From: an uncultured Flavobacteriales bacterium
GTDB taxonomy: Bacteria; Bacteroidota; Bacteroidia; Flavobacteriales_G; Salibacteraceae
Reading direction: 5' to 3'
Length of the DNA stretch: 64,000 nucleotides
Assembly: GCA_905181855.1 (NCBI GenBank)
Contig: CAJIZE010000020.1
Location: 1 to 64,000, forward strand
This document shows positions 4,809-30,112 of the stretch, piece by piece. Position numbers and translations under genes: made by a program. The notes below the pieces were generated by a model. The model saw only the letters and a program-made list of their open reading frames with translations, made no database searches and was not told where the DNA came from. Within the stretch, counting starts at the first letter, position 1, and each line of letters starts with the position of its first letter.

Positions 4809-7800
4809 TTAAAACGAATCTAAATCAATCGGTCTCATCATTCCAAACCATTTTATAATTCTTTCTCCTACTCCGTCTACTTTTACATGAATAACATATA
4901 ATCCAGATGAAATTGGTGTCAAATATCGATTCTTCAAATCCCAATCTATATAGGTTGTTGACGCATCATCTTTACTAAAAGATCTTATCAAAATACCATT
5001 TACAGTGTAAATATTAATATCACATTTAGGAGGTAAATTGGTAATCTTTATTCTGTTATCCAATTTATCCGATTCATATTGAGAATATGCATAATATGGA
5101 TTCGGCACTACATTTATCAATTGCAACGCATCATCTGCTGCAGAAACATTCCCAAACTCTGGTGCCAATCCATCCAAATTAAACTGATATAAAGGAATGC
5201 CTCCATTAACAGTTGCAATAAGGTTATATTCCTTGTCTTGACCCGAAGGCGTAAATGAAGTTGTCCAAGCAACAAAAGATTCACCTCTTGTATACGAGAC
5301 CGTATCATGAATGACGTCTCCTCTATTAACCAAATATCTGGTCCCTATTTCAAGTTTATCTCCAAAACTTTTTCCTTCTTCACCCGAATAAGGTCTATAA
5401 GGCGCATCAACTCTTATCCTAACTATTGCTTCATCTGGAATTAGTCCTTCCTCAACTGAATTCAATTTTGCTCCTTGAGTTAAAAGTGGTAATCCAGCCC
5501 ACATTCCTGCCCGAACAACATTTCTTAGACCCCTAAATGTATTTGATGATAAATTATCATAAATAAATTGACCATAGTCATACATTGGCATTCTATTTTC
5601 AGGATCTTCATATAACGTTTCTTTTTCGTAACGACCATCCTCAACATCGTTGTTGCGATAAACTATTATATAGTGTGAACCACCTAATCTGATATTATCA
5701 AACGGGCCCTCAAACAATTTATCCGTTGGATTCCAAAGCATGTCTCTGCCGTTTTCATTTGCTAAGTAAGAAGCCTCACCAAACGCAATATTTAGTCTTT
5801 CTCCAGTTTCGATATTTACAGCATAACCTGGAAACCACCCCATACCAGTTGGCGCTATAAAAGAAGGATCATTAATGTCTGTTGAAGCAGCAGCTCCTAG
5901 CTCAGCGGATACCCCTCTTTTATCTACAGACGGAGAAGACCTCAATCTCCCTCTTTTTACATCATCCAGCGATAACGTATCTGACATTTCTAGCACCGGT
6001 GAACGTGTCCATTTACTAGTATCACTGGTAAAAACAATATCCACACTTTGTAGGAAGTTCAATTGGTTAGATTCTAGCTCAAATGGTGTATCTTTTGTGA
6101 AGAACAATTCTGACCTATCATTACTTTGTGCGTCAGACCTTTCACTCTTCCAAGTAGGCACAGGACCATAGCTATGATCTGCGGATAATCTATATGGAGC
6201 CCATGTTCCTTCCAGAACGTTCTCATATACTTGCTCATCATCAAGACGGATATTTAGCTCTGCCCCTGAATTAAAGTACCAATCCCAATCATCAAAATTT
6301 GGTTCAAAAGCTCCAGTTAATGGATCATCTTCTGATGCACTTTTCCCAGAAAGTATCCAATTATCAGCAGTAAAACCATCCACATCCATTACCCCAGATA
6401 ACCATTCATTATCGTTAGCAAAATCCATCTTCGAAGAAATAAGTCCATTATTTGAAGTCCCCGGAGTGCCAGGAACTATCGCCTGTTCTAGTGAGATTGA
6501 TATACCCAAATCCAAAAGCAGATTTTCAGTTCCAATCTCAATAAATTTACTATGTACTAATGTATCTTGAATAGAGTCACCATAAATAATATAATAAGCA
6601 TCCTTCAAATCTTTTTGATCATTAGTGTCTACAAACTGTACCGTATAGTTACCACCAACAACATTCAGTGGATCTATAATCTTAACTTTTATAGGACTAA
6701 AACCTGCTTTATAGGTAGGATTTAAAATTTTGAAAGGAGCTTTTGTTGCTTTATCTCTTTCAGAATCCAATAAATCAAGAAAATATCCACCATTACCTGT
6801 ACCTTCAATTCTAGTAACCTCTACCTCTTCGCCAAATTCAGCATTTAATACTGTACCTCCTGATTCAATAATTGATTTATGAGGAATACCAGACACAGTT
6901 TTGATTCCGCCTGATGCAGCCTTACGCGATGCTAAATATGCTCTTGACTGAGCATCATCGCTTGGGTTTTTTGAATCGTATGCTTCAAAGTTGTTATAAG
7001 CATAAGCGATAGCAATAAAATAATAAGACCTATGGTTAATCAATTTATTATCTCCGCTGGCAAATAAGTCATTGGTAACCTTAAACGCCTTGGTAATTCC
7101 TATATTTTCTCCCTCAACCATCAATTCAGGAACTGTCAATCCCAAATCTTCGTCAATAGGATAATTTATAATTCTACTGACATCGTCTTTTACATCACAT
7201 TGAAATATTAAACGAGCCTTGTCAGCATCATCCAAATCAGAAGCAGATACCGTAGCATCAAAGACTTGATATACTTCATAACCTTGAAATGCATATGTAG
7301 CATACTCTTGACGTTCTTTTTCTGTCCAAGTTTTAATAATCGCACCGGAAGTATCAAATTCAATAGTTGGAGCTATGATAAACGGATCCACCTCAGCATA
7401 TGATTCATTGAAATTATTTGAGATAGGTTTGTTTGTGATATACACCAGCAATTCTCCATCTAGCTCTTGGATTTCTAGTTCTGGAGCATCGGGACCACTT
7501 AATATTTTAAAACAATTGTCAAAAAGCGCTTGAGTTTTATCATCAGCCAATCGCAGAGAGGCAACAGAACCAGCTTCGCCGGGTCCTCCACTTTTTGCTC
7601 TTGCCCAAACAACACCAACAGTTATATTATTTAATGCTCCAGGTTGTAAAACAAATGGTCCTGCAGATTGCATAAACCGTCTATCTGCAGCAGTATTTCC
7701 TTCTGTTTCTTCTGTCCATTTTCTTTGTGGAAGTCCAGATGTACCCCAACCAGCAGGATCAGTATCACCAGGAAACATGTAATCCGCCTCTGTATTTGGA

Positions 7801-9128
7801 TCAGCTTGTGGGCTATTTGTGTGTCCCGTACCTCCATAAAGCATTCTGGAGCCATCTTTCCAAAAACCACGCAAGTAATTATAGTACTCTACTCCATTAT
7901 CAGGATTTCCGGTGGCACCACCTGAATTATTGTAGTATAAAAATTTACGCATTCCAAACCTTTCATTATCTGGAATACTATCACCATAACCAATTCCAAT
8001 ACCTTGATAAGGTATACCTGATTCATTTGTAGCAGTCTGAAAATCTGTTGTAAGCGGATTATCTAAACCATCATTATCTTGATAAGGACCTTGAAAAAAG
8101 TCAACTCCAATTGCAGGAGGTTGAATTCCATATCCCTTTGCTCCACCATTATCTTCATCATTGTTGTCTCCATTGTAACAATAACCTAAGCCTCGCTCAA
8201 CATCACAACCTACGTAATCATCTTGTGCATTTCCTAAATCAGGATCAACCCATTGTCCAAAATATGTTTCTGTTAAAGTAAAAGTAGACCGATTTACCAA
8301 CTCATAGTTGTAAAAAGTCATGTTATTTACTTCATCATTAGTAGCAAATGAGAATGCTTGAGCTCTAATTTCCATTCCAATTGCCTCAGATCCCGTCTCA
8401 GTGTGAATGTTTCCTTTATCATTAAAAACCCACCATAGGTTTTGGTCACCATAAATATTTACAATTTTTTCTTTACAATCACTTTCTCCACTTAAATCGT
8501 AAGCAGGATAATCACCATCCTCAACCACATAATTTCCATCTCCGTTTCTGTCAAAAAATGGAGCTAAGTAGTAATCTTCATTGTATGGGTCAAATGGTCT
8601 GCCATGAGCGGGCCACTCCAAAATACTATTGGGTATTTGAAATGAAGGATAAGCATCTGGATCTTCATACCATGCAACAAACTGTGCCACTTCATCCCTA
8701 GTTGTAACATAATGCTTATCATATTCCGAACAAGTCGAAGCATCAACCTCACCTGTAACGGTACTTAAAGGACCCGTCCAATAATCAATACCAGAAGATC
8801 TAAACTGAATTGCTGCAACTTTTAATTGACCACTAACATCTCTTCCACCAAGCCACAGCGAACCCGCGAATAATGCAGTATTTCCAGAATTTTGCGGAAC
8901 CTCATATTGCGGTTGACCAATAAGATTCCACCACATATCACCTCCGGTTTGAATTAAGGCTCTAACATTATTTATATCCAGCTCAGTTGACGCCGTAGCC
9001 GGAGCACAACCTGCAGCCAAACTTTTGGTTCCTTTTACACTTTTAGTGCCTTTTGGAAGGCCGGCATAAGTATTGCTCAACATTAAAGCTGAAGCCACAA
9101 GAGTAAAAACTATCGATAATCGTTTCAT
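4809..9128 (-). CDS. Giant secreted protein with C-terminal type IX-like sorting/FlgD-Ig domain
   Basis: A 1439-residue exported protein of unknown function. It has a signal peptide (1-22), an N-terminal family region with DMWWNLIGQPQYEVP (about 64-78) and SLWLGGRDVSGQL, an acidic calcium-binding-like loop FDRNGDGNYVVEDGDYP near residue 193, and a C-terminal beta-sandwich (about 1345-1425) with VVPNPYYAYS and SGLYVIHV, as in type IX/FlgD-like domains. It ends with an extra tail IKWFGMMRPIDLDSF. Similar large proteins with a DLDxF tail recur in Bacteroidota beside PorV-like barrels. It lies 18 bp after the TonB receptor and 29 bp before the barrel gene, so the three are one operon. Surface attachment or export is inferred; no catalytic domain was recognised. 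Confidence 0.82.
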   Translation of the reverse strand: MKRLSIVFTLVASALMLSNTYAGLPKGTKSVKGTKSLAAGCAPATASTELDINNVRALIQTGGDMWWNLIGQPQYEVPQNSGNTALFAGSLWLGGRDVSGQLKVAAIQFRSSGIDYWTGPLSTVTGEVDASTCSEYDKHYVTTRDEVAQFVAWYEDPDAYPSFQIPNSILEWPAHGRPFDPYNEDYYLAPFFDRNGDGNYVVEDGDYPAYDLSGESDCKEKIVNIYGDQNLWWVFNDKGNIHTETGSEAIGMEIRAQAFSFATNDEVNNMTFYNYELVNRSTFTLTETYFGQWVDPDLGNAQDDYVGCDVERGLGYCYNGDNNDEDNGGAKGYGIQPPAIGVDFFQGPYQDNDGLDNPLTTDFQTATNESGIPYQGIGIGYGDSIPDNERFGMRKFLYYNNSGGATGNPDNGVEYYNYLRGFWKDGSRMLYGGTGHTNSPQADPNTEADYMFPGDTDPAGWGTSGLPQRKWTEETEGNTAADRRFMQSAGPFVLQPGALNNITVGVVWARAKSGGPGEAGSVASLRLADDKTQALFDNCFKILSGPDAPELEIQELDGELLVYITNKPISNNFNESYAEVDPFIIAPTIEFDTSGAIIKTWTEKERQEYATYAFQGYEVYQVFDATVSASDLDDADKARLIFQCDVKDDVSRIINYPIDEDLGLTVPELMVEGENIGITKAFKVTNDLFASGDNKLINHRSYYFIAIAYAYNNFEAYDSKNPSDDAQSRAYLASRKAASGGIKTVSGIPHKSIIESGGTVLNAEFGEEVEVTRIEGTGNGGYFLDLLDSERDKATKAPFKILNPTYKAGFSPIKVKIIDPLNVVGGNYTVQFVDTNDQKDLKDAYYIIYGDSIQDTLVHSKFIEIGTENLLLDLGISISLEQAIVPGTPGTSNNGLISSKMDFANDNEWLSGVMDVDGFTADNWILSGKSASEDDPLTGAFEPNFDDWDWYFNSGAELNIRLDDEQVYENVLEGTWAPYRLSADHSYGPVPTWKSERSDAQSNDRSELFFTKDTPFELESNQLNFLQSVDIVFTSDTSKWTRSPVLEMSDTLSLDDVKRGRLRSSPSVDKRGVSAELGAAASTDINDPSFIAPTGMGWFPGYAVNIETGERLNIAFGEASYLANENGRDMLWNPTDKLFEGPFDNIRLGGSHYIIVYRNNDVEDGRYEKETLYEDPENRMPMYDYGQFIYDNLSSNTFRGLRNVVRAGMWAGLPLLTQGAKLNSVEEGLIPDEAIVRIRVDAPYRPYSGEEGKSFGDKLEIGTRYLVNRGDVIHDTVSYTRGESFVAWTTSFTPSGQDKEYNLIATVNGGIPLYQFNLDGLAPEFGNVSAADDALQLINVVPNPYYAYSQYESDKLDNRIKITNLPPKCDINIYTVNGILIRSFSKDDASTTYIDWDLKNRYLTPISSGLYVIHVKVDGVGERIIKWFGMMRPIDLDSF

Positions 9129-19400: not shown

Positions 19401-20252
19401 ATGACCTCCAAAGTAGCTCCTATAAAATTAGTTCGTTGGGAAAAAGATCAATTCATCACAGCAAGCGATCTTCTGGCCACTGAAGAACCAATGGAAATAA
19501 GACTTGGTTATGGTGAAATGGATAACCGCCTTGAAAAAACTATTGCTGTTACAATGAGAACACCCGGCAATGATTTTGATTTGGCTCTGGGCTTTCTTTT
19601 TACTGAAGGTATTGTTCACTCTTATGAAAGCATTCTTAGTGTAAAATACTGCTCGGACCATGGCAAAGAAGAAAGTAAAAACAACATCGTTCGAGTTGAG
19701 TTAAGGCCAGAAGTTGTTCCTGATTTAAATCTGAGCGAACGAAATTTTTATACTACCTCATCTTGTGGGATTTGTGGGAAAGCTTCAATAGATAACATCA
19801 AAACAGTTTGCCAATTTGATGAAAACACCAATCAATCTGAGCAACTTAAAGTTTCAGCTAAAACTATTGCATCGTTACCTGAAAAATTAAAAACAAAACA
19901 GCTTATTTTTGAACATACTGGTGGTTTGCATTCCTCCGTTTTATTCGATTTAAATGGAACTTTAACTTCCTTATACGAAGATGTTGGTAGACACAATGCC
20001 CTCGATAAAATAATCGGTTGGGCACTTCAAAAAGGTCAACTTCCTCTTAAAAATAACATTCTTTTGGTTAGCGGTAGAACCAGTTTTGAGCTAATTCAGA
20101 AAGCATATATGGCAGGAATACAGATAGTTGTAGCTATAGGAGCTCCAAGTTCATTAGCTGTTGATTTTGCCAATGAAATTGGAATCACGTTAGTTGGTTT
20201 CACCAAAAAGGATAGATTTAATGTTTACTCAAACCCTAATCGGATCGTCTAA
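19401..20252 (+). CDS. fdhD: Formate dehydrogenase accessory sulfurtransferase FdhD
   Basis: 283 residues. FdhD passes sulfur from IscS to the molybdenum/tungsten cofactor of formate dehydrogenase, which is needed for activity. The sulfur-carrying CxxC, C122 and C125 in SSCGICG, matches C121/C124 of the E. coli protein. EDVGRHNALDKIIG (196-209) and SGRTSFELIQKA further on are the cofactor-binding motifs. It is convergent with fdhA; the two stop codons overlap by 4 bp. The neighbour supports the assignment strongly. Confidence 0.97.
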   Translation: MTSKVAPIKLVRWEKDQFITASDLLATEEPMEIRLGYGEMDNRLEKTIAVTMRTPGNDFDLALGFLFTEGIVHSYESILSVKYCSDHGKEESKNNIVRVELRPEVVPDLNLSERNFYTTSSCGICGKASIDNIKTVCQFDENTNQSEQLKVSAKTIASLPEKLKTKQLIFEHTGGLHSSVLFDLNGTLTSLYEDVGRHNALDKIIGWALQKGQLPLKNNILLVSGRTSFELIQKAYMAGIQIVVAIGAPSSLAVDFANEIGITLVGFTKKDRFNVYSNPNRIV

Positions 20253-23029
20253 ACCATCTCATTAGCATTTCGCATATGTGTTTTTTTTGCTTTACGGATG
20301 TTTACTGAAACAACTTTATACTCTGGGCACATTGCTTCAGAATCATGAATGTCAGAAGTAATATTGTTTACCATTATTTCAGGGAAATGAAAAGTTGTAC
20401 TCAGAACTCCTTCTTTAATGCCATCGGTTATCATTGCTTTAATATCAACTTTTCCACGAGCAGATTCTATACAAACTAAATCACCATCAGCAATACCATT
20501 GTCTGCAGCATCTTTTGGATGGATCCACAGTACATCTTCAGTATGAATCAATACATTGTCTGTTCTACGGGTCATTGCTCCACAGTTGTAGTGTTCCAAA
20601 TCTCTATTGGTTGTTATAATGTATGGATACTCTTTGCTATGTTCGACTATTTCTTTTGATTCTTCCCAATCAAAATAGGCGAATTTCCCTTTACCTCTTC
20701 TAAACTCTTCACGATGTAAAATTTTGGTATCGGTACCATCTTTTAGCACAGGCCATTGTTTTCCGTTATCACCTAACTCATCCCATTTAACACCTGCAAA
20801 AAACGGCACAATCTGGCAGATTTCCTCAAGCATGGTTTTAGCATCGTATTTCGCTTGTTCATATCCCATTCTGTTCATTACATCAATGATAATCTGACCG
20901 TCAATCTTTGTCCCTTTTATCGGGTCAACTGCAGCCTGAACTCTTTGGATACGTCTTTCACCATTTGTAAAAGTTCCACTTTTTTCTAAGAAAGAAGCTC
21001 CAGGTAAAATAACATCAGCGTACTTAGCCGTTTCGGTCATAAAAAGCTCCTGAACGATCACCATATCGGTTGCATTCAATGCTTTAATTACCTTTTGGGT
21101 GTTAGGGTCAGTCTGAACTACATCCTCACCAATAATCCATAATGCTTTTAAGTTGCCACTTATTGCGGCAGCGAACATTTCGGGAATTTTATAACCTATT
21201 TCTTTAGGCATATCAACCCCGTAAAAATCTTCGTATTGTTTCTGAACATCTGGCTTGGTAATGTCCATGTATCCAGCTCCTTGGTGTGGTTGAACACCCA
21301 TGTCAGCTGAACCTTGAACGTTGTTTTGTCCACGTAATGGATTTACTCCAACGCCTAACCTACCAATGTTACCTGTAATCATTGCTAAATCAGCAATCTG
21401 TATTACGGTAAAAGTTCCTTGGCTGTGTTCTGTAACACCTAATCCATGAAAAGACATTGCTGTTTCTGCCGACGCATAAGCAATGGCTGCTGCTCTTACC
21501 TTTTCTCTTGGAACACCTGAAACGGACTCCATTTTATCTACATCTAAAGCTAAAATTTGCTTTTCAAAACCATCGTAACCTTCAGTTCTTGATTCAATAA
21601 AAGATTCATCAGCCAAATCTTCTTTAATAATGTAATACAGCATCATGTTGAGAACAGCCACGTTTGTACCTGGTCTTAATTGTAAATGATGTTGAGCTAG
21701 AATAGCAAGTTCGGTTTCACGAGGATCAATTACAATAAGTGTTGCCCCCTTGAATGCACGTTGCTTTATTTTCGCTCCAGTTACCGGATGAGCAGCCGTT
21801 GGGTTCGCCCCAATGATCATCATGCATTCAGTAAAATCAATGTCTTTAATTGAGTTGGTTGCCGCACCTGTTCCGAAAGTTCGTTGCATGCCCAACGCAG
21901 TAGGTGAATGACAAACCCTTGCACAACCATCAATATTGTTGGTTCCTACCACTGCTCTGATGAATTTTTGCATCAAATAGTTTTCTTCGTTAGTACAACG
22001 TGATGACGAAATACCTGCAATTTGATCTGGTCCGTTTTCTTTAATCACTTTAGTTAAGTGATCGGTAATATGGTCGTAAGCTTCATCCCAAGAAACTTCT
22101 TCAAACTCACCGTTCCGTTTTATCATTGGTGACCTTAACCTTTCAGGATGGTCGTAAAACTTAAAGGCATATCGTCCTTTCAAACAAGTATGGCCTCCAT
22201 TTGCTTCTGCATCAAGTGGAGCTTGTATTGATAATATTTCTTGATTTGTAGTAGATACTTCAAGATTACACCCTACTCCACAATACGTACAAACGGTTCT
22301 CGTTTTTTCTTCTGCGACTATACTTTTTGATTGATAAACATCTGAAATTGCTGATGTTGGACAAGCCTGAGCACAAGCACCGCAGCTAACACAATCCGAT
22401 TCAAAAAAGCTAACTCCATCTCCTTTTACTATCTGTGAATCAAAGCCTCTACCAGCCATTGACAATATAAACTGCCCTTGAACCTCATCACAAGCTCTAA
22501 CACATCTGTAACAGTTAATGCATTTCGATAAATCGGATGTCATATAAGGATGGCTTAAATCTTTTTTTCTATCCAAATGGTTTTCACCTGCCGGATACCT
22601 TACATCTCTTATTCCAACTTCTGCCGCAACTGTTTGCAGTTCACAGTTACCATTGACCTCACAGGTTAAGCAATCAAGTGGATGGTCAGTCAATACCAAC
22701 TCAATGATGTTTTTTCTTAGTTTTTTAATTTTTGGAGAACCAGTAAAAATGAACATTCCTTCAGACACCGGCGTGTGGCAAGATGCCATTGTTTTTCTTG
22801 GGCCATCTTCTTTAAGAGCTACATCAACAGAGCATACTCTGCATGAGCCGAATGCTTCCAGATTGGGAGCATCACACAAAGTGGGAATCAATTTGCTGCT
22901 TTTCGTCCTTTTCACAAAATCAAGAATGGTTTCATCTTCAGCATAACAGAAAGATTCACCATCAATGGTGGCTTTCATTTCTGTTAACTTAAATTGACTG
23001 TATTCTATAGCTTGTGCAAGTAAATTCAT
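20249..23029 (-). CDS. fdhA: NAD-dependent formate dehydrogenase, catalytic alpha subunit (NuoG-like N-terminus, Cys active site)
   Basis: 926 residues, cytoplasmic (no Tat signal). In order: a [2Fe-2S] domain (C52, C63, C66, C84); a NuoG-type His-Cys cluster (H116, C120, C123, C129); two [4Fe-4S] ferredoxin motifs (C170-C180 and C213-C223); the molybdopterin domain's own cluster (C247, C250, C254, C282); and the bis-MGD catalytic domain with active-site C373 in RVCHSP where selenocysteine occurs in other versions. The last 120 residues form the cofactor-capping domain. An alternative start is the Met at residue 18 (22978), just before the 2Fe-2S domain. It oxidises formate to CO2 and passes electrons to the FdhB subunit encoded upstream. 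Confidence 0.94.
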   Translation of the reverse strand: MNLLAQAIEYSQFKLTEMKATIDGESFCYAEDETILDFVKRTKSSKLIPTLCDAPNLEAFGSCRVCSVDVALKEDGPRKTMASCHTPVSEGMFIFTGSPKIKKLRKNIIELVLTDHPLDCLTCEVNGNCELQTVAAEVGIRDVRYPAGENHLDRKKDLSHPYMTSDLSKCINCYRCVRACDEVQGQFILSMAGRGFDSQIVKGDGVSFFESDCVSCGACAQACPTSAISDVYQSKSIVAEEKTRTVCTYCGVGCNLEVSTTNQEILSIQAPLDAEANGGHTCLKGRYAFKFYDHPERLRSPMIKRNGEFEEVSWDEAYDHITDHLTKVIKENGPDQIAGISSSRCTNEENYLMQKFIRAVVGTNNIDGCARVCHSPTALGMQRTFGTGAATNSIKDIDFTECMMIIGANPTAAHPVTGAKIKQRAFKGATLIVIDPRETELAILAQHHLQLRPGTNVAVLNMMLYYIIKEDLADESFIESRTEGYDGFEKQILALDVDKMESVSGVPREKVRAAAIAYASAETAMSFHGLGVTEHSQGTFTVIQIADLAMITGNIGRLGVGVNPLRGQNNVQGSADMGVQPHQGAGYMDITKPDVQKQYEDFYGVDMPKEIGYKIPEMFAAAISGNLKALWIIGEDVVQTDPNTQKVIKALNATDMVIVQELFMTETAKYADVILPGASFLEKSGTFTNGERRIQRVQAAVDPIKGTKIDGQIIIDVMNRMGYEQAKYDAKTMLEEICQIVPFFAGVKWDELGDNGKQWPVLKDGTDTKILHREEFRRGKGKFAYFDWEESKEIVEHSKEYPYIITTNRDLEHYNCGAMTRRTDNVLIHTEDVLWIHPKDAADNGIADGDLVCIESARGKVDIKAMITDGIKEGVLSTTFHFPEIMVNNITSDIHDSEAMCPEYKVVSVNIRKAKKTHMRNANEMV

Positions 23030-23117
23030 GTTATTTTTATTTCAGTTGTTCTGTATTCTCTTCTCGGTAATCATTTCTAATGTAATCTGTTTTCGGTTTG
23101 TCTGTTTTTCTAGCTTT

Positions 23118-24788
23118 CTAATTACTTACAACCGATTCTTCAAAATAAGGATTAAATTCTTCAACAAAATATTGAAGTGCATTTTTAATCGGCAAAGGCA
23201 AACCTCCACCTAAGGCACACAACGAACCTGATTCTAATGTTTCGAGTAAATCATCCAATAATTCTCTGTCTATTTTATAATCTCCTTTAAGCGCTTGTTC
23301 AAACATTTCTTCTCCTCTTTTACTACCTAATCTGCAAGGGAAACATTTACCACAACTTTCATCTGACGTAAACTTAAAAAGATGTTTCACATATTCTGCT
23401 AAAGGAAAATCGTTAGGAATACAAACTACAGAAGCATGACCAAGCAGAAAACCGTTTTCTGCAAAAGATTCAAAATCAATGGTTAAATTAAACCATTTTT
23501 CTTTTGGGACCAACCCTCCTAATGGGCCACCAATATGCATCGCTTTTATTTCGGTGTTTAAACCTTGTCCACATTCATTAACAACATCTTCGAAAGCATA
23601 CCCCATTGGTACTTCATAAATACCTGGTCTGTTAAAAAAGCCATCTAATGATATTAATTTTGTTCCGGTTGAACGACCACGACCAATGGCAGAATAAGCA
23701 TCACCACCTTGTTCTAAAATAAATGGCAAGTTGGCTAAACTCTCTACATTGTTAACCACGGTTGGCTTGCTGAACAGCCCTTTTTGCGTTGGGTAAGGTG
23801 GCCTTACTCTAACTTCAGCTCTTTGACCTTCAATTGAAGATAAAAGCGATGTTTCTTCTCCACATATATAAGCACCTCTTGCCTTTATTGTTTTAAAGTA
23901 AAAATCGAAACCTGACCCTAATATATTCTCTCCAATCAACCCTTCTTTCTCTAGCTCAGCAATGGCTTCATTTATTATTGATAAACTATCCGGGTATTCA
24001 TAACGGATGTACAATACACCCCATTGAGCTCCTACTACATAACCTGCTATCATCATTCCTAACAACAACTTCAAAGGCTGCTGTTCCATGATGTATTTAT
24101 CTGAATAAGCTCCTGGATCTCCCTCATCAGCGTTACAAACTATGAAGCGCTCGTCTGATGGAGTGTTTTTACATGATTCAAGTTTAAACCCAATTGGAAA
24201 ACCGGCGCCACCTCTGCCTCGCATACCTGATTTTTTTATTTCATCAAGTGCATCATTGTCTGATTTCTCAAACATATCGGTTAGTACTCCTTTGAAGTTT
24301 TCAATACCGCCAAACTCACTTGTTAAAATTGCTTCGCCAAAAGCTTCAACATGGTATTCATCTTCTTGAATCGGTTTGTCTTTTACAATTTCTTTGATAT
24401 TATCTATTGCATCACCAGAGTAATTTTTACCATCATAGTGGAAAGCTGAATTTTCATGACATCTTCCTAGGCAACAAATGTGACCTACTTCTTCTTCCTT
24501 AAAATTGTTTTTTAACGTTGAAACGACACCTTCTTGGGTTTTAGCAGTCAAACAAGAACTGCCGTTACAGTAATACACCTTTTTACCCTTGTTAGCCGGC
24601 TTCAAAAAATCGTAAAAGCTTGTTGCGCCATAAGTATTTGCATTACCCATCAAATATTTTTCCGCGAGCTTTTTTAATTCTTTAGGATCTGGGGTTCCAT
24701 CATTCTGCTCTGCTAAATCACCTAGATTTTCATATAGGTTCTCATCCATTCCTTTTCGCCCACTCAATCCACTTAAATTCTTCGACAT
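23118..24788 (-). CDS. fdhB: NAD-dependent formate dehydrogenase beta subunit (NuoE-NuoF fusion)
   Basis: 556 residues combining two complex I modules. Residues 20-125 are a NuoE-like thioredoxin-fold [2Fe-2S] domain with ligands C74, C79, C106 and C110. Residues 150-556 are NuoF-like: FMN/NADH site GRGGAGFP (191-198), ADEGDPGAYSD (220-230), GAYICGEETSLL (305-316), then the [4Fe-4S] ligands C479, C482, C485 and C524. It should take electrons from FdhA and reduce NAD+. The gene precedes fdhA by 88 bp in the same direction. No membrane or cytochrome subunit is present, fitting a soluble enzyme. Confidence 0.93.
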   Translation of the reverse strand: MSKNLSGLSGRKGMDENLYENLGDLAEQNDGTPDPKELKKLAEKYLMGNANTYGATSFYDFLKPANKGKKVYYCNGSSCLTAKTQEGVVSTLKNNFKEEEVGHICCLGRCHENSAFHYDGKNYSGDAIDNIKEIVKDKPIQEDEYHVEAFGEAILTSEFGGIENFKGVLTDMFEKSDNDALDEIKKSGMRGRGGAGFPIGFKLESCKNTPSDERFIVCNADEGDPGAYSDKYIMEQQPLKLLLGMMIAGYVVGAQWGVLYIRYEYPDSLSIINEAIAELEKEGLIGENILGSGFDFYFKTIKARGAYICGEETSLLSSIEGQRAEVRVRPPYPTQKGLFSKPTVVNNVESLANLPFILEQGGDAYSAIGRGRSTGTKLISLDGFFNRPGIYEVPMGYAFEDVVNECGQGLNTEIKAMHIGGPLGGLVPKEKWFNLTIDFESFAENGFLLGHASVVCIPNDFPLAEYVKHLFKFTSDESCGKCFPCRLGSKRGEEMFEQALKGDYKIDRELLDDLLETLESGSLCALGGGLPLPIKNALQYFVEEFNPYFEESVVSN

Positions 24789-24915: not shown

Positions 24916-25557
24916 ATGCTGACCGAAGTTTTCATTTGTACCCCAAGTGTTGTTGTTGCAACAGGAATTAAAACGCTTTGTAAGAAGCTTTCTAAAAAAA
25001 CAAAATTCACAACAGCTTCAAGTTTCGAAGAGTTAACATCACTGCTTCTTAAATCAGATAAACAAAACATAATTTTTGATTCTAATTGCATTAAGTTCAC
25101 TGATTTTGAGTCTGAAACAACTACTAAATTCTTATTAGAACATAAAGTTATTCTGTATTCAAACTTCAATAAAAAAGTTATCTATGATCTGCACCGGTTA
25201 AATCTGCAAGGCTATATAACTGATGAGTCGTCAAACGATGATTTTGCAAAAGCATTGGAATCGTTTGAAAGCAATCAAAAATTCTATACTCAAAAAGTTG
25301 TTGGTGTCTTAATTGAAATGAGCATGAAACATGCTACATTAAAAGCGGAGACCAAAGCTCATGATGATCTTTCAATACGAGAAATGGAAGTATTTAAGCT
25401 TGTAACAGAAGGTAAAACGGCTCAAGAAATTGCAGATCAGTTTAATCTTAGTATCCACACCGTTTATACACATCGTAAAAACATACTTAAAAAGCTTTCT
25501 TGCAGCAGCGCATCAGAACTGATCAACTACGCATACGATAAAAACATCTTTCGGTAG
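24916..25557 (+). CDS. LuxR/NarL-type transcriptional regulator with degenerate receiver
   Basis: 213 residues. The C-terminal 60 form a LuxR-type helix-turn-helix (DDLSIREMEVFKLVTEGKTAQEIADQFNLSIHTVYTHRKNILKKL, about 149-193). The N-terminal 120 look like a response-regulator receiver: D55 could be the phosphoacceptor, but the usual acidic pair near residue 9 is missing (ICTPS) and the conserved Lys is not found in GYITDESS. It may therefore be activated without normal phosphorylation. It is divergent from fdhB (127-bp gap) and 97 bp upstream of the HmuY/HmuR-like operon in the same direction; either is a candidate target. Confidence 0.85.
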   Translation: MLTEVFICTPSVVVATGIKTLCKKLSKKTKFTTASSFEELTSLLLKSDKQNIIFDSNCIKFTDFESETTTKFLLEHKVILYSNFNKKVIYDLHRLNLQGYITDESSNDDFAKALESFESNQKFYTQKVVGVLIEMSMKHATLKAETKAHDDLSIREMEVFKLVTEGKTAQEIADQFNLSIHTVYTHRKNILKKLSCSSASELINYAYDKNIFR

Positions 25558-25567
25558 TTCACTTGAA

Positions 25568-25585
25568 ATACCTAAAGTTAGGTAT
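25568..25585. promoter_or_regulatory. Palindromic operator candidate 1 upstream of the heme operon
   Basis: A perfect 8-bp inverted repeat with 2-bp spacer, ATACCTAA-AG-TTAGGTAT. It lies 10 bp after the regulator gene and 22-23 bp (centre to centre) before a second copy of the motif. Confidence 0.6.
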
Positions 25586-25607: not shown

Positions 25608-25638
25608 TTGTATGAGAATTTTAGCGCCGCTACTTTTG
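25608..25638 (+). promoter_or_regulatory. Promoter of the heme-uptake operon
   Basis: TTG at 25608-25610, a 20-bp spacer and a perfect TACTTTTG -7 box at 25631-25638, 17 bp before the ATG of the first gene. The leader must be very short, about 10 nt. Confidence 0.7.
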
Positions 25639-25654: not shown

Positions 25655-26890
25655 ATGAAAAAATACACGAAACTAAGTTTAGCTTTATTAATTTCTGGAA
25701 ATTTATTAGCTCAAACCAACGACAACATTAGCTACAAATCAGGATACACAAATAGTGTTTATTACAGCTTAGAATATGGCGAAATAGCTACAAGCAAAAC
25801 TTCTGATTGGGACTTGGCAGTTGCGATTTACTCCACTCAAACTGCTTCAATAATCATAAACGGAGGATTTGGAACTGAGCTGTATCAGTATACCGCAGGC
25901 GATACATCTGATTGGAAATCACTTGACACAGTTGGCTTGTATTCCTCATCCCGTTATAAGCAATGTTTTGATACAGACACTTCTCATTACCTCAGCGCGT
26001 TCGAATACAACTCATCCGGGCATCCAAATTATGGATGGGGCATGTACAATAGCATTACGCACAATGTAATAGGGACTTCATTATTTGTATTAAAAACCCA
26101 ACTTGGTAAGTATAAAAAGGTTTGGATAGTTGAGCAGCAAGCCATGCAACAAACTACTACAATTAAAACCTCAGACCTTGATAACTCGAACGAAAAAACA
26201 TTGGTAATTGACAGAAAAGTACCGAACAGAAATTACCTGTATGTTGATATAGAAGCTAATACGGTGGAAGACCTTGAACCTTCAAATCAATCTTACGACC
26301 TTATTTTCACTAAATACCTTGGTGACTTCGGAACATTTACTTATCCTGTTTCTGGCGTGCTTTCTAACATAGGTGTTTCAGTTGCAGAGTCTAGAGGTGT
26401 CGATATTGCAGAGGCAGACATGAATGCTAATCCTTTTAGCAAAAGAATGAATGTAATTGGCTCAGACTGGAAAAGCTTCAATAACAGCTCTTTTCAATAT
26501 GACTTGACGGATTCGTTGTCATTTTTTATTGAAGATAAAGCTAGTAATGTATGGCACCTGTGGTTTACAAGTTTCGAAGGCTCATCAACAGGTAATGTAG
26601 AATTCGTAAAGCAAAAAGTACTTTCCACTTCAGTTTCAAATGATTTGTTAGAATCCAAATTAAACGTTCTAGTATTTCCTAATCCTGCCAACGAGACTTT
26701 AAAAATTAATCTACCCAATGAAAAAACTTTTACCGTAGAGTTAATCAGCGTCACAGGTAAAACCATAATGCACTCAGAAAACCTTAAAGGCAAGCTAAGA
26801 CTTGATGCATCAGGTTTTGATAGTGGAATTTATTTACTTAAAGTTGAGAATTCAGAATTTACCAGTATTCAAAAAATAGTTTTGCAATAA
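25655..26890 (+). CDS. HmuY-like protein with C-terminal type IX sorting domain
   Basis: 411 residues: signal peptide (1-19), HmuY-like domain (about 30-330) and a type IX secretion sorting domain (about 340-411, VFPNPANETLKINLPNEK... SGIYLLKVEN... QKIVLQ). The HmuY family pattern is seen in SVYYSLEYGEIATSKTSDWDLAV (34-56), the YKKVWIV strand, SYDLIFTKYLGDFG and NVIGSDWKSF followed by WHLWFTSFEGSSTG. HmuY in Porphyromonas gingivalis is a heme-binding lipoprotein that feeds the HmuR receptor. Here the lipid anchor is replaced by a sorting domain, so the protein is probably surface-attached or released. It heads the operon; the receptor gene starts 1 bp after its stop. Confidence 0.8.
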   Translation: MKKYTKLSLALLISGNLLAQTNDNISYKSGYTNSVYYSLEYGEIATSKTSDWDLAVAIYSTQTASIIINGGFGTELYQYTAGDTSDWKSLDTVGLYSSSRYKQCFDTDTSHYLSAFEYNSSGHPNYGWGMYNSITHNVIGTSLFVLKTQLGKYKKVWIVEQQAMQQTTTIKTSDLDNSNEKTLVIDRKVPNRNYLYVDIEANTVEDLEPSNQSYDLIFTKYLGDFGTFTYPVSGVLSNIGVSVAESRGVDIAEADMNANPFSKRMNVIGSDWKSFNNSSFQYDLTDSLSFFIEDKASNVWHLWFTSFEGSSTGNVEFVKQKVLSTSVSNDLLESKLNVLVFPNPANETLKINLPNEKTFTVELISVTGKTIMHSENLKGKLRLDASGFDSGIYLLKVENSEFTSIQKIVLQ

Positions 26891-26891
26891 G

Positions 26892-29111
26892 TTGATTTTA
26901 AGAGTTTGCTATTTATTCTTTTTAATCATATTTACGCTTAACAATCTTGTAGGACAAGTTACCCTGCAAGTGGTTGACGAAAACAACCATCCGCTTGCAG
27001 GGGCTCATGTTGTCTCAAACGCTGACGACAAAAATAGAGCTCAATTTAGTGTGACTAATTTTAAAGGTTGGGTTGAACTAAATGTAAAAAAGAATTCAAT
27101 CATTAAAGTTTCACACGTAGGTTTTTATGATTTTATCGATACGCTAAAATCATCTATCAACAGAACAATTAAACTAACCCCTAATTCGGAATTAATTAAT
27201 GAGTTTGTTGTGACCGCAACGAATGGTAAAACCCGTTCAAATGAGCATTTACACCAGGTGAAAATAATAAACGCTAAAACCATTGCTAGTAAAGGTGCGG
27301 TCACATTAAAAGACGCATTAACCAACGAATTAAACTTAAATTTATCTCAAGATCAATTTTTAGGCACTGGCTTAACTTTAAATGGTTTAGGTGGTGAAAA
27401 CATAAAAATTTTAATTGATGGTGTACCAGTTATTGGACGATTAAATGGCAACATTGATTTAAGTCAAATCAACCTTAACAATATTGAGCAAATTGAAATT
27501 ATTGAAGGGCCTGTTTCAGTTGATTATGGCAGTAATGCCTTAGGTGGAGTAATTCATCTAATTAGCAAAAAAAACATCCCTAAATCTAAGTTTGTTCTTA
27601 ATTCTTTTTACGAGTCAGTTGGCAATTACAACATTGATGGCCTATTAGGCTTAAAGCACAAAAACTTAAACTTTGGTGTTTTTGCAGGAAGAAATTTCTT
27701 TGATGGCTTCAATCCTAACCCATTCGATGTTCGATTTTTACTTTGGAAACCAAAAGAGCAGTATTTTGGAAAAGCCAATGTGGCATTAAATCTTAATAAA
27801 TCAATTTTAAAAATATCATCCAAAGTATTTCGAGAAATCATCCAAAGCAAAGGTTCTCCGCTCGCCCCTTTTAATGAAACGGCCCTTGATCAATATTTCA
27901 CGACCTACAGAATAGATAACGATTTTAGTTTCACTAAATACATTAATCAGAACCAGAAAATTGAAATTACATCAGCTTATAATTTGTACAAACGTACTTC
28001 TCAAACTTTTTTTAAAAATCTGGTTACTCTAGCTGAAACCGAAAACTACAATCGTGATGATGAGTTCAAGTTAATTTTCAGTAGAGGAATATATAGTTTC
28101 GATAACAACAATAAATTCATACGCTTCAAAGCAGGCTATCATTTTAACAAAGAAATTTCAGAAGGAGAACGAATTGAATCAAACATTCAGTCTATTACCG
28201 ATATGGCAATTTTTAGCACAGCAAATTTTTCCTTTTTCAATAACAAAAGCTTAACCTTTAAGCCAGGATTAAGGTATAGCTATAATTCTGCATTTAAATC
28301 ACCATTAATACCTTCGATAAATATTAAATATGATTTCCCAAAAAATATAATTTTTAGAGCTTCTTACTCAAAAGGGTTCAGGGCTCCGTCTTTAAAAGAA
28401 CTTTACTTTGTTTTTGTTGACATTAACCACAATATTCTTGGAAATAAAGAATTAAAATCAGAGTCAGGCAACCATTTCACGGGCTCTGTCAATCTATCAA
28501 TAAAAAATATGCATGTTAAGATTAGTGGGTTTCATAACAGTATTAAAAATCAAATTCAGTCGGTCCAAAAATCTATACTTAGCGATTCTCAAGAATATCA
28601 ATTTCAAAATATTGCAGCTTTTAAATCCAAAGGAGGCTCTGTCAATTTCGCCAAAAACCTTAAGCAACTTTCAGTTTCAGTTGGAGGAAGTTATATTGGC
28701 TTAAATCAGAATGCCGAGATTAGTTCATCTAACTTTATTTGTTATCATGAACTGCAGTCTAATGTTTCTTATGATTTTACTAAATACAAAACTAAAGCAG
28801 CTGTTTATTTTAAGAATACAGGCAAACAACCCTTTTTATACTCTGAGTTTTCACCCTCCAATAATTCCGAACTAGTTAAAAAAGGTTTTATTGAAGCCTA
28901 CAATTCTCTCGATGCGAGTATTTCATTCTCTATTTTTAAACAAAAGCTAAACATTGTTTTTTTTGCTAAAAACCTTTTTAATATCACAAATTTAAATCAA
29001 AATGGTACTTTAAACGCTTCCGCTCACTCTACAAACCAAAGTTTAATACCTTCCTTTTGGGGTAGAAGTTTTGGAGCGAAATTATCATACCATATGAGTA
29101 AAAATAAATGA
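26892..29111 (+). CDS. TonB-dependent receptor, probable heme receptor (HmuR-like)
   Basis: 739 residues: signal peptide (ending about residue 22, VGQ), a carboxypeptidase-regulatory-like domain (23-105), plug (about 110-230, with LGGENIKILIDGVPVIGRLNG and GPVSVDYGSNALGGVIHLISKK) and a 22-strand-type barrel. The heme/hemoglobin receptor signature is present: FRAPSLKELYF, a His a few residues later in DINHNILGN, and KEL in place of NPNL. Start is TTG at 26892, 1 bp after the HmuY-like stop; it overlaps the next gene by 4 bp. Flanking HmuY-like genes support heme as ligand. Confidence 0.85.
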   Translation: MILRVCYLFFLIIFTLNNLVGQVTLQVVDENNHPLAGAHVVSNADDKNRAQFSVTNFKGWVELNVKKNSIIKVSHVGFYDFIDTLKSSINRTIKLTPNSELINEFVVTATNGKTRSNEHLHQVKIINAKTIASKGAVTLKDALTNELNLNLSQDQFLGTGLTLNGLGGENIKILIDGVPVIGRLNGNIDLSQINLNNIEQIEIIEGPVSVDYGSNALGGVIHLISKKNIPKSKFVLNSFYESVGNYNIDGLLGLKHKNLNFGVFAGRNFFDGFNPNPFDVRFLLWKPKEQYFGKANVALNLNKSILKISSKVFREIIQSKGSPLAPFNETALDQYFTTYRIDNDFSFTKYINQNQKIEITSAYNLYKRTSQTFFKNLVTLAETENYNRDDEFKLIFSRGIYSFDNNNKFIRFKAGYHFNKEISEGERIESNIQSITDMAIFSTANFSFFNNKSLTFKPGLRYSYNSAFKSPLIPSINIKYDFPKNIIFRASYSKGFRAPSLKELYFVFVDINHNILGNKELKSESGNHFTGSVNLSIKNMHVKISGFHNSIKNQIQSVQKSILSDSQEYQFQNIAAFKSKGGSVNFAKNLKQLSVSVGGSYIGLNQNAEISSSNFICYHELQSNVSYDFTKYKTKAAVYFKNTGKQPFLYSEFSPSNNSELVKKGFIEAYNSLDASISFSIFKQKLNIVFFAKNLFNITNLNQNGTLNASAHSTNQSLIPSFWGRSFGAKLSYHMSKNK

Positions 29112-30112
29112 AAAAAAAGATTCTCTTTATTTGCCTTATTTTTACTCTATCAGGTTGTTTTAAAGAGGACCTCCCGATTGAAGCTTATCAATCATCCTCT
29201 GATATTTTTACCAATCAAGTAGAAGTTGGGCCTTTTTACAGAAATCAAGTTTTCTTCGATCTTGAAACCAATAAAATTATATCAAGTAACGACCGTTCTG
29301 TTTGGGACTTAGCGTTTGTAAACGAAGTAGCCTCAAGTGCTATTTTTTTAAACTCCTCAAAATTCATGAAAGTTGGCATCACAAATTCAACCGACTTTGT
29401 TACTTGTTCTGAAAAAGAGATCTATGAATGGAAATTTGATAATCCTTCAGGTGACAAAAATGAGTCAGCACTATCTAGTTTTATTGTCGATTTCGATAAC
29501 CTCAAAACCGCAACCAAAAAAGTCTTTTTTATTGATCGAGGTTATACACCAGATGGGAATGAAATTGGTTTAATAAAACTACAAATTATTAATTTTACGG
29601 ATTCAACTTACAGTATTAAATTTTGTAACGTAAGCAACAACATAATTTACGAACATCAAATATTGAAATCAGAATTAACCTCCTTTAATTATTTCAGCTT
29701 TGATGACGGTGGCAAAACTGTTAAGGTTGCTCCTCCAAAAACTCAATGGGATCTTCAATTTACGCAATACACAACTAGAGTCCAGCAAACCGCAACCGGA
29801 ATCACAGAAGATTACTTGGTAAATGGCGTTTTATTAAACACTGAAAGCACATTTGCCGTTTTAGAAGATTTAAAAGAATTTGATCAAATAAATCACAAAG
29901 ACCTACCCAATTACTCTTTATCAAATCAATACGATGTAATCGGATACGATTGGAAGGAATATAATTTCCAAACCCAGAGTTATGAAATATTAGATGACAA
30001 TACATATTTAATAAAAACTCAAGAAGGGAATTTCTTCAAACTTCGCTTTACTTCATTTTTAAATAATACTGGTGAAAGAGGTTTTCCAACTTTTAACTTT
30101 AGCAAGTTTTAA
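29108..30112 (+). CDS. HmuY-like lipoprotein
   Basis: 334 residues with lipobox LSGC (Cys17), followed by the HmuY-like pattern FFDLETNKIISSNDRSVWDLAFVNE (about 55-79), the strand KVFFIDRGY, TQWDLQFTQYTTRVQ and YDVIGYDWKEYN ... FFKLRFTSFLNNTGERGFPTF at the end. It should be anchored at the outer membrane, most likely on the surface, and bind heme or a related porphyrin. The ATG overlaps the receptor stop by 4 bp. It differs from the first gene of the operon in being lipid-anchored and lacking a sorting domain. Confidence 0.82.
   Translation: MKKKILFICLIFTLSGCFKEDLPIEAYQSSSDIFTNQVEVGPFYRNQVFFDLETNKIISSNDRSVWDLAFVNEVASSAIFLNSSKFMKVGITNSTDFVTCSEKEIYEWKFDNPSGDKNESALSSFIVDFDNLKTATKKVFFIDRGYTPDGNEIGLIKLQIINFTDSTYSIKFCNVSNNIIYEHQILKSELTSFNYFSFDDGGKTVKVAPPKTQWDLQFTQYTTRVQQTATGITEDYLVNGVLLNTESTFAVLEDLKEFDQINHKDLPNYSLSNQYDVIGYDWKEYNFQTQSYEILDDNTYLIKTQEGNFFKLRFTSFLNNTGERGFPTFNFSKF

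Follow-up and report, generated by a model that had tools for sequence, protein, structure and literature searches.

A candidate heme-uptake operon of Bacteroidota with a type IX-tailed and a lipid-anchored HmuY-fold protein around one TonB-dependent receptor

The Hmu system of Porphyromonas gingivalis couples a HmuY-fold lipoprotein hemophore to a neighbouring TonB-dependent receptor that carries FRAP/NxxL boxes and a loop histidine, and its single HmuY, of about 190 residues, has His134 and His166 as heme ligands. A related arrangement is the hfpR-DoxX-hfpY operon of Flavobacterium psychrophilum, in which a HmuY-family protein is co-transcribed with a TonB receptor (PMC9331221); HfpY binds heme 1:1, HmuY relatives vary in their ligands, with HfpY suggested to use an original mechanism, and motifs of the FRAP...His...NxxL type are associated with heme receptors (PMC9331221). 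Riemerella anatipestifer has an iron- and Fur-regulated hmuY-hmuR pair (RAYM_06175/06180); the Riemerella Fur box is TTTAGA-N5-TCTAAA, EMSA showed that Fur binds its target promoters, and a third, unnamed gene appears to share the box in the opposite orientation, with no T9SS-tailed HmuY stated (PMC5609570). P. gingivalis also possesses the Iht system (IhtA/IhtB), where the putative heme-binding, CbiK-like lipoprotein IhtB (PMC10913741) is found beside a TonB receptor. The direct precedent for one of the proteins described below is C6N29_01035 of Flavobacterium columnare, which combines a HmuY domain with a Por_Secre_tail and is reported to be secreted by the type IX secretion system (T9SS); its deletion caused no growth defect in iron-limited medium, and the accessible text of that report describes a single HmuY and discusses neither a partner lipoprotein nor a receptor trio (PMC9618737). 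The earlier note on the DNA analysed here, in which known HmuY systems are said to rely on a single lipoprotein, is accordingly only partly right, since the F. columnare protein has been published as a T9SS-secreted HmuY. Whilst T9SS export of HmuY (in F. columnare) and classical HmuY-receptor operons are therefore already known, the locus presented here adds to the Hmu kind an apparently new form, in which two conserved HmuY paralogues, one T9SS-tailed and the other lipid-anchored, flank a single receptor; searches of the open-access literature, outside which most subscription journals lie, revealed no account of such a pair or of a two-halved HmuY architecture.

The locus lies in a 64,000-nucleotide stretch of DNA (hereafter the window), contig 20 of a Bacteroidota assembly (1.43 Mb, 55% complete), and comprises the following features.

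24916-25557, plus strand: gene for a LuxR/NarL-type DNA-binding regulator, 213 aa (GerE, E 9e-17)
25569-25584, no strand: operator-like palindrome TACCTAAAGTTAGGTA (TACC-N8-GGTA), kept in a genus mate (G001:C231:4311-4326)
25631-25638, plus strand: putative Bacteroidota -7 box TACTTTTG (TAnnTTTG), from which the distance to the palindrome is taken
25655-26890, plus strand: P2, 411 aa, ATG start, HmuY-fold protein predicted to be T9SS-exported
26060-26062, plus strand: P2 His136, candidate heme ligand by conservation (93%)
26663-26887, plus strand: P2 type A C-terminal sorting domain (Por_Secre_tail, E 3e-13, residues 340-409)
26892-29111, plus strand: TonB-dependent receptor, 739 aa, TTG start, Plug and barrel
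28377-28454, plus strand: FRAP...His513...GNxxL loop motif, GNKEL in the window receptor
29108-30112, plus strand: P4, 334 aa, ATG start, HmuY-fold lipoprotein with lipid-anchor Cys17
29366-29368, plus strand: P4 Met87, candidate heme ligand by conservation (82%)

The three genes are packed together, with 1 bp between P2 and the receptor and a 4-bp overlap (ATGA) between the receptor and P4, exactly the operon layout that the earlier note had read from the open reading frames. We interpret them as a heme- or porphyrin-acquisition operon in which two surface hemophore-like proteins serve a single TonB-dependent receptor, an interpretation to which we assign a probability of roughly 0.6. In contrast to P. 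gingivalis Hmu, there are two enlarged paralogues, one of them T9SS-exported, and no hmuSTUV genes in the window, where no other Hmu gene adjoins the trio and neither a heme ABC importer nor HemS is found beside the operon. Unlike the case in F. psychrophilum, for which no T9SS-tailed partner is described in the operon, the receptor here is flanked by both kinds of protein. Translations of the genes downstream of P4 indicate an unrelated set, the first trigger-factor-like and followed by ClpP and ClpX. Elsewhere in the window, formate-dehydrogenase-like and NuoF-like genes near the heme operon (20249-24788) form, together with FdhD (19401-20252), an apparent NAD-linked formate dehydrogenase cluster, and a 1439-aa protein encoded on the minus strand at 4809-9128 has no Pfam match.

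P4 matches the HmuY family (PF14064) with 74.4 bits over residues 44-331, above the curated cut-off, and its lipobox Cys17 is invariant in 57 relatives, all 57 of which match HmuY and none of which carries a sorting tail; a lipobox was recognised by regular expression in 59 of 64. These observations bear out the assignment of P4 as a lipid-anchored HmuY-like protein. P2 is not a lipoprotein and instead has a signal peptide at about residues 1-20 (read from the sequence, with an N-terminal helix at 2-16 in the AlphaFold2 model), a HmuY-like region at about 21-325 and a sorting domain at about 337-411. Its Por_Secre_tail match (see above) and its score against TIGR04183 (49 bits, cut-off 23) confirm the type IX sorting domain that had been claimed, and the last 75 residues of the predicted model match the C-terminal domains of T9SS substrates (NucA CTD 8glk_D: VIA Z 12.5, 1.4 Å, 74 residues). 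A signal peptide combined with a sorting domain at the extreme C-terminus is the make-up of a T9SS type A substrate (TIGR04183/PF18962), the same genome encodes T9SS machinery (SprA_N, 521 bits) alongside 54 Por_Secre_tail matches, and the sorting domain is present in all 55 aligned P2 relatives.

The HmuY-like character of P2, also claimed previously, holds by profile comparison and predicted fold and is weak by sequence match: PF14064 gave a marginal 27.7 bits (cut-off 27) in a six-frame genome search and went unreported for P2 by hmmscan, and 33 of the 55 aligned relatives match HmuY. Structure prediction, which the earlier note had proposed for both HmuY-like domains, returned a HmuY-family fold in each model (AlphaFold2 mean pLDDT 91.8 for P2 and 93.8 for P4). 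P4 finds its best PDB matches in HmuY, PinO, Tfo and Bacteroides relatives (Z 12.7-16.1, against 5.8 for the first unrelated structure), with VIA Z 16.1, 2.5 Å and 138 residues for P. gingivalis HmuY (3h8t); the P2 model matches the same group (Z 10.4-12.9), with Z 12.4, 3.1 Å and 134 residues for 3h8t (182 residues). A Foldseek search with the whole P2 model yielded mostly sorting-domain matches and unrelated beta proteins.

Profile-to-profile comparison relates the P2 and P4 families with E 2e-49 over 274 columns, and because the joint tree splits them cleanly into separate clades (support 1.0, long separating branch) we regard them as ancient paralogues, each of which exceeds classical HmuY in length. 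Each comprises about 300 mature residues, and within each protein the N- and C-terminal halves are related to one another (hhalign E about 1e-7). HmuY structures align across model residues 30 to 334 using about half of the residues, such that the roughly 180 residues of a HmuY extend over almost all of the protein ahead of any C-terminal domain, with about 135 residues aligned, in P2 and P4 alike; roughly half of each therefore lies outside the classical HmuY fold. The length, the related halves and this half-use of residues rule out a plain single-domain HmuY, and both proteins are enlarged, two-halved HmuY relatives.

Judged from the family alignments, the His/Met ligands of classical HmuY and Tfo appear not to be conserved, and each family seems to have a near-invariant candidate of its own: in P2 His136, accompanied by Tyr131 (100% conserved) within a GWGxYNxxTH segment missing from P4, and in P4 Met87. 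The C-terminal halves of both families hold no strongly conserved His or Met column, the best being P4 position 313, His in 61% of sequences and Arg in the window. These data bear on the alternative that survives best, namely that P2, rather than carrying heme, caps the receptor complex or binds a hemoprotein or an extracellular source of heme, with P4 alone being a heme-binding hemophore. The greater distance of P2 from HmuY (27.7 versus 74.4 bits), the long branch between two fully supported clades, which is consistent with different jobs, and the segment peculiar to P2 would all suit such a division; however, the predicted P2 model retains a HmuY-type fold, and its almost invariant histidine and invariant tyrosine are of the heme-ligating kind, so that we consider this alternative unlikely.

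The gene trio extends well beyond the source genome. Of 100 genomes (the source genome and relatives), 36 encode a P2 homologue over its full length at E below 1e-20, and in 35 of these 36 a P4 match shares the contig, mostly no more than about 9 kb away. From the genome collection 80 receptor loci were kept, 50 of them with enough flanking sequence; P4 lies downstream of the receptor in 48 of these 50, and in 43 P2 also lies upstream, a fraction that holds for this receptor clade because the loci were picked by receptor similarity. In 31 loci the three genes follow one another without interruption, and several of these loci reproduce the 1-bp and -4-bp spacing of the window exactly; records with the receptor include assemblies of Flavobacteriales, Bacteroidales, Chitinophagaceae, Cytophagales, Kapabacteria and Ignavibacteria. 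A search for the same gene order in other Bacteroidota, as the earlier note had suggested, thus finds it; the recurrence across the phylum is far beyond chance, rules out uniqueness to the source genome, and identifies a widespread, little-described design in place of a one-genome oddity.

So wide a distribution would also suit an alternative in which P2 is redundant within a Hmu/Hfp-type heme system of the ordinary sort, the trio being no more than the usual Bacteroidota form of that system, overlooked by annotation; the T9SS-secreted HmuY of F. columnare, whose knock-out had no growth phenotype, points the same way. Against redundancy, the strict split between a T9SS tail in every aligned P2 relative (55/55) and a tail-less HmuY in every P4 relative (57/57), kept around one receptor in distant lineages, implies selection for both proteins, and we think this account rather improbable.

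The receptor itself has Pfam TonB Plug (2e-20) and barrel (9e-26) domains. The FRAP...His...GNKEL heme signature that had been claimed for it is present, and all 80 aligned receptors share Arg497, Pro499, His513, Gly517 and Leu521; with FRAP and NxxL boxes and a conserved histidine between them, the receptor is HmuR-like, its motif being intact where that of F. psychrophilum HfpR is partial and loop 7 of the latter extended. Its best NCBIfam match is the heme receptor family TIGR01785, in which it is not filed because the score (108.7 bits) falls below the curated cut-off of 316.85, and NCBIfam scores proved uninformative as a guide to cargo, the heme (109 bits) and B12 (97 bits) models being too close for clear separation.

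The neighbourhoods of relatives give further indications of cargo. Genes inserted between P2 and the receptor encode DUF6607, DUF6686, CbiX lipoprotein-like, PepSY_TM, hemerythrin and FMN_bind/Fer4_5 proteins; in Taibaiella soli (L104) a Peripla_BP_2 protein, a FecCD permease, a heme ABC ATPase (HmuV-type; 306 bits against NF010068, cut-off 261) and HemS/ChuX occupy this position, and HemS/ChuX recurs in two further loci (L107, L142). One relative (L110) has DoxX between the receptor and P4, the gene order of F. psychrophilum hfp. DUF6607 and DUF6686, each in about ten loci (L103:4259-5179, L141:5396-5728 and homologues), are families likely to be linked to heme or iron uptake. CbiX-domain proteins account for 8 of the 52 inserted proteins scanned; chelatases of this type with a lipoprotein-like N-terminus lie inside the operon at L070:3353-4255 and L125:4476-5414 and, by analogy, could possibly act as surface or periplasmic heme-demetallating enzymes, resembling IhtB in concept. 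In this respect the relatives are similar to P. gingivalis Iht, although the latter has no HmuY-fold proteins and the window operon no CbiX gene. A Fur-box-like TTTAGA-N5-TCTAAA, identical in sequence to that of R. anatipestifer, is found ahead of the operon in 9 of the 62 loci, compared with a mean of 0.05 in shuffled sequences, and has no match in the promoter region of the window. The cobalamin riboswitch expected upstream of a BtuB operon is absent, at gathering score, from the window and from 10 related loci.

Taken together, the receptor motif, the neighbouring genes in relatives and the lack of a cobalamin riboswitch suggest, by analogy, heme or a related porphyrin as the best candidate cargo. 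Uptake of some other substrate by repurposed HmuY folds, for instance a corrinoid (B12) or an iron-siderophore, would accommodate the nearly equal B12 scores of the receptor, the occurrence of CbiX chelatases in cobalamin and siroheme pathways and the fit of CbiX, PepSY_TM and FMN_bind neighbours to generic metal or tetrapyrrole uptake, but is very improbable given the presence in related clusters of HemS/ChuX and of a heme ABC ATPase that scores above its cut-off, the fully conserved receptor loop histidine, the missing riboswitch and the Fur boxes upstream of relatives.

As regards regulation, 29 of the 62 regions preceding P2 contain a TACC-N4..8-GGTA palindrome, against a mean of 0.45 (maximum 2) in shuffles. 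Its distance ahead of the -7 box is fixed in most cases, at 46 bp in the window as well as in four near relatives and at 23-24 bp in many others. The TACC-N8-GGTA form resembles a NarL-type 7-2-7 site, and is probably a site, albeit a putative one, of a LuxR/NarL-type regulator. Many related loci have a plus-strand LuxR-type homologue immediately ahead of P2, and the palindrome occurs in 9 of 13 loci with a local LuxR gene and 20 of 47 without one, a link that is only suggestive; the LuxR-type protein of the window is nevertheless likely to be the operon regulator. Pfam finds no receiver domain in this protein, and amongst its homologues upstream of the operon one is present in L090 and missing in L063. 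A role for the palindrome as the site of a global regulon is unsupported, with 19 sites in the genome as a whole compared with 29 for controls.

Under the preferred interpretation of a heme- or porphyrin-acquisition operon, P2 would be directed by its signal peptide to the type IX system, cross the outer membrane and be released or attached outside the cell, where it may take heme from the surroundings or from hemoproteins. P4 would be lipid-anchored in the outer membrane beside the receptor, presumably facing outward; heme would pass to P4, to the His513 loop of the receptor or to both, and be imported by the receptor with TonB energy, the adjacent LuxR-type regulator putatively controlling the operon through the TACC-N8-GGTA site. 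A two-stage relay from P2 to P4 to the receptor is a plausible hypothesis, and its extension to the phylum, whereby an ancient duplication yielded free T9SS-exported and anchored hemophores with distinct ligands (His136/Tyr131 and Met87) serving one receptor, is at present tentative. Nevertheless, the two-halved duplication of HmuY makes ligand evolution testable and, if both proteins bind heme, the trio would represent a standard two-tier design for heme scavenging in many Bacteroidota, with a logic comparable to that of soluble HasA and its receptor plus a built-in membrane-anchored intermediate, and would give the T9SS a clear nutritional role outside pathogens.
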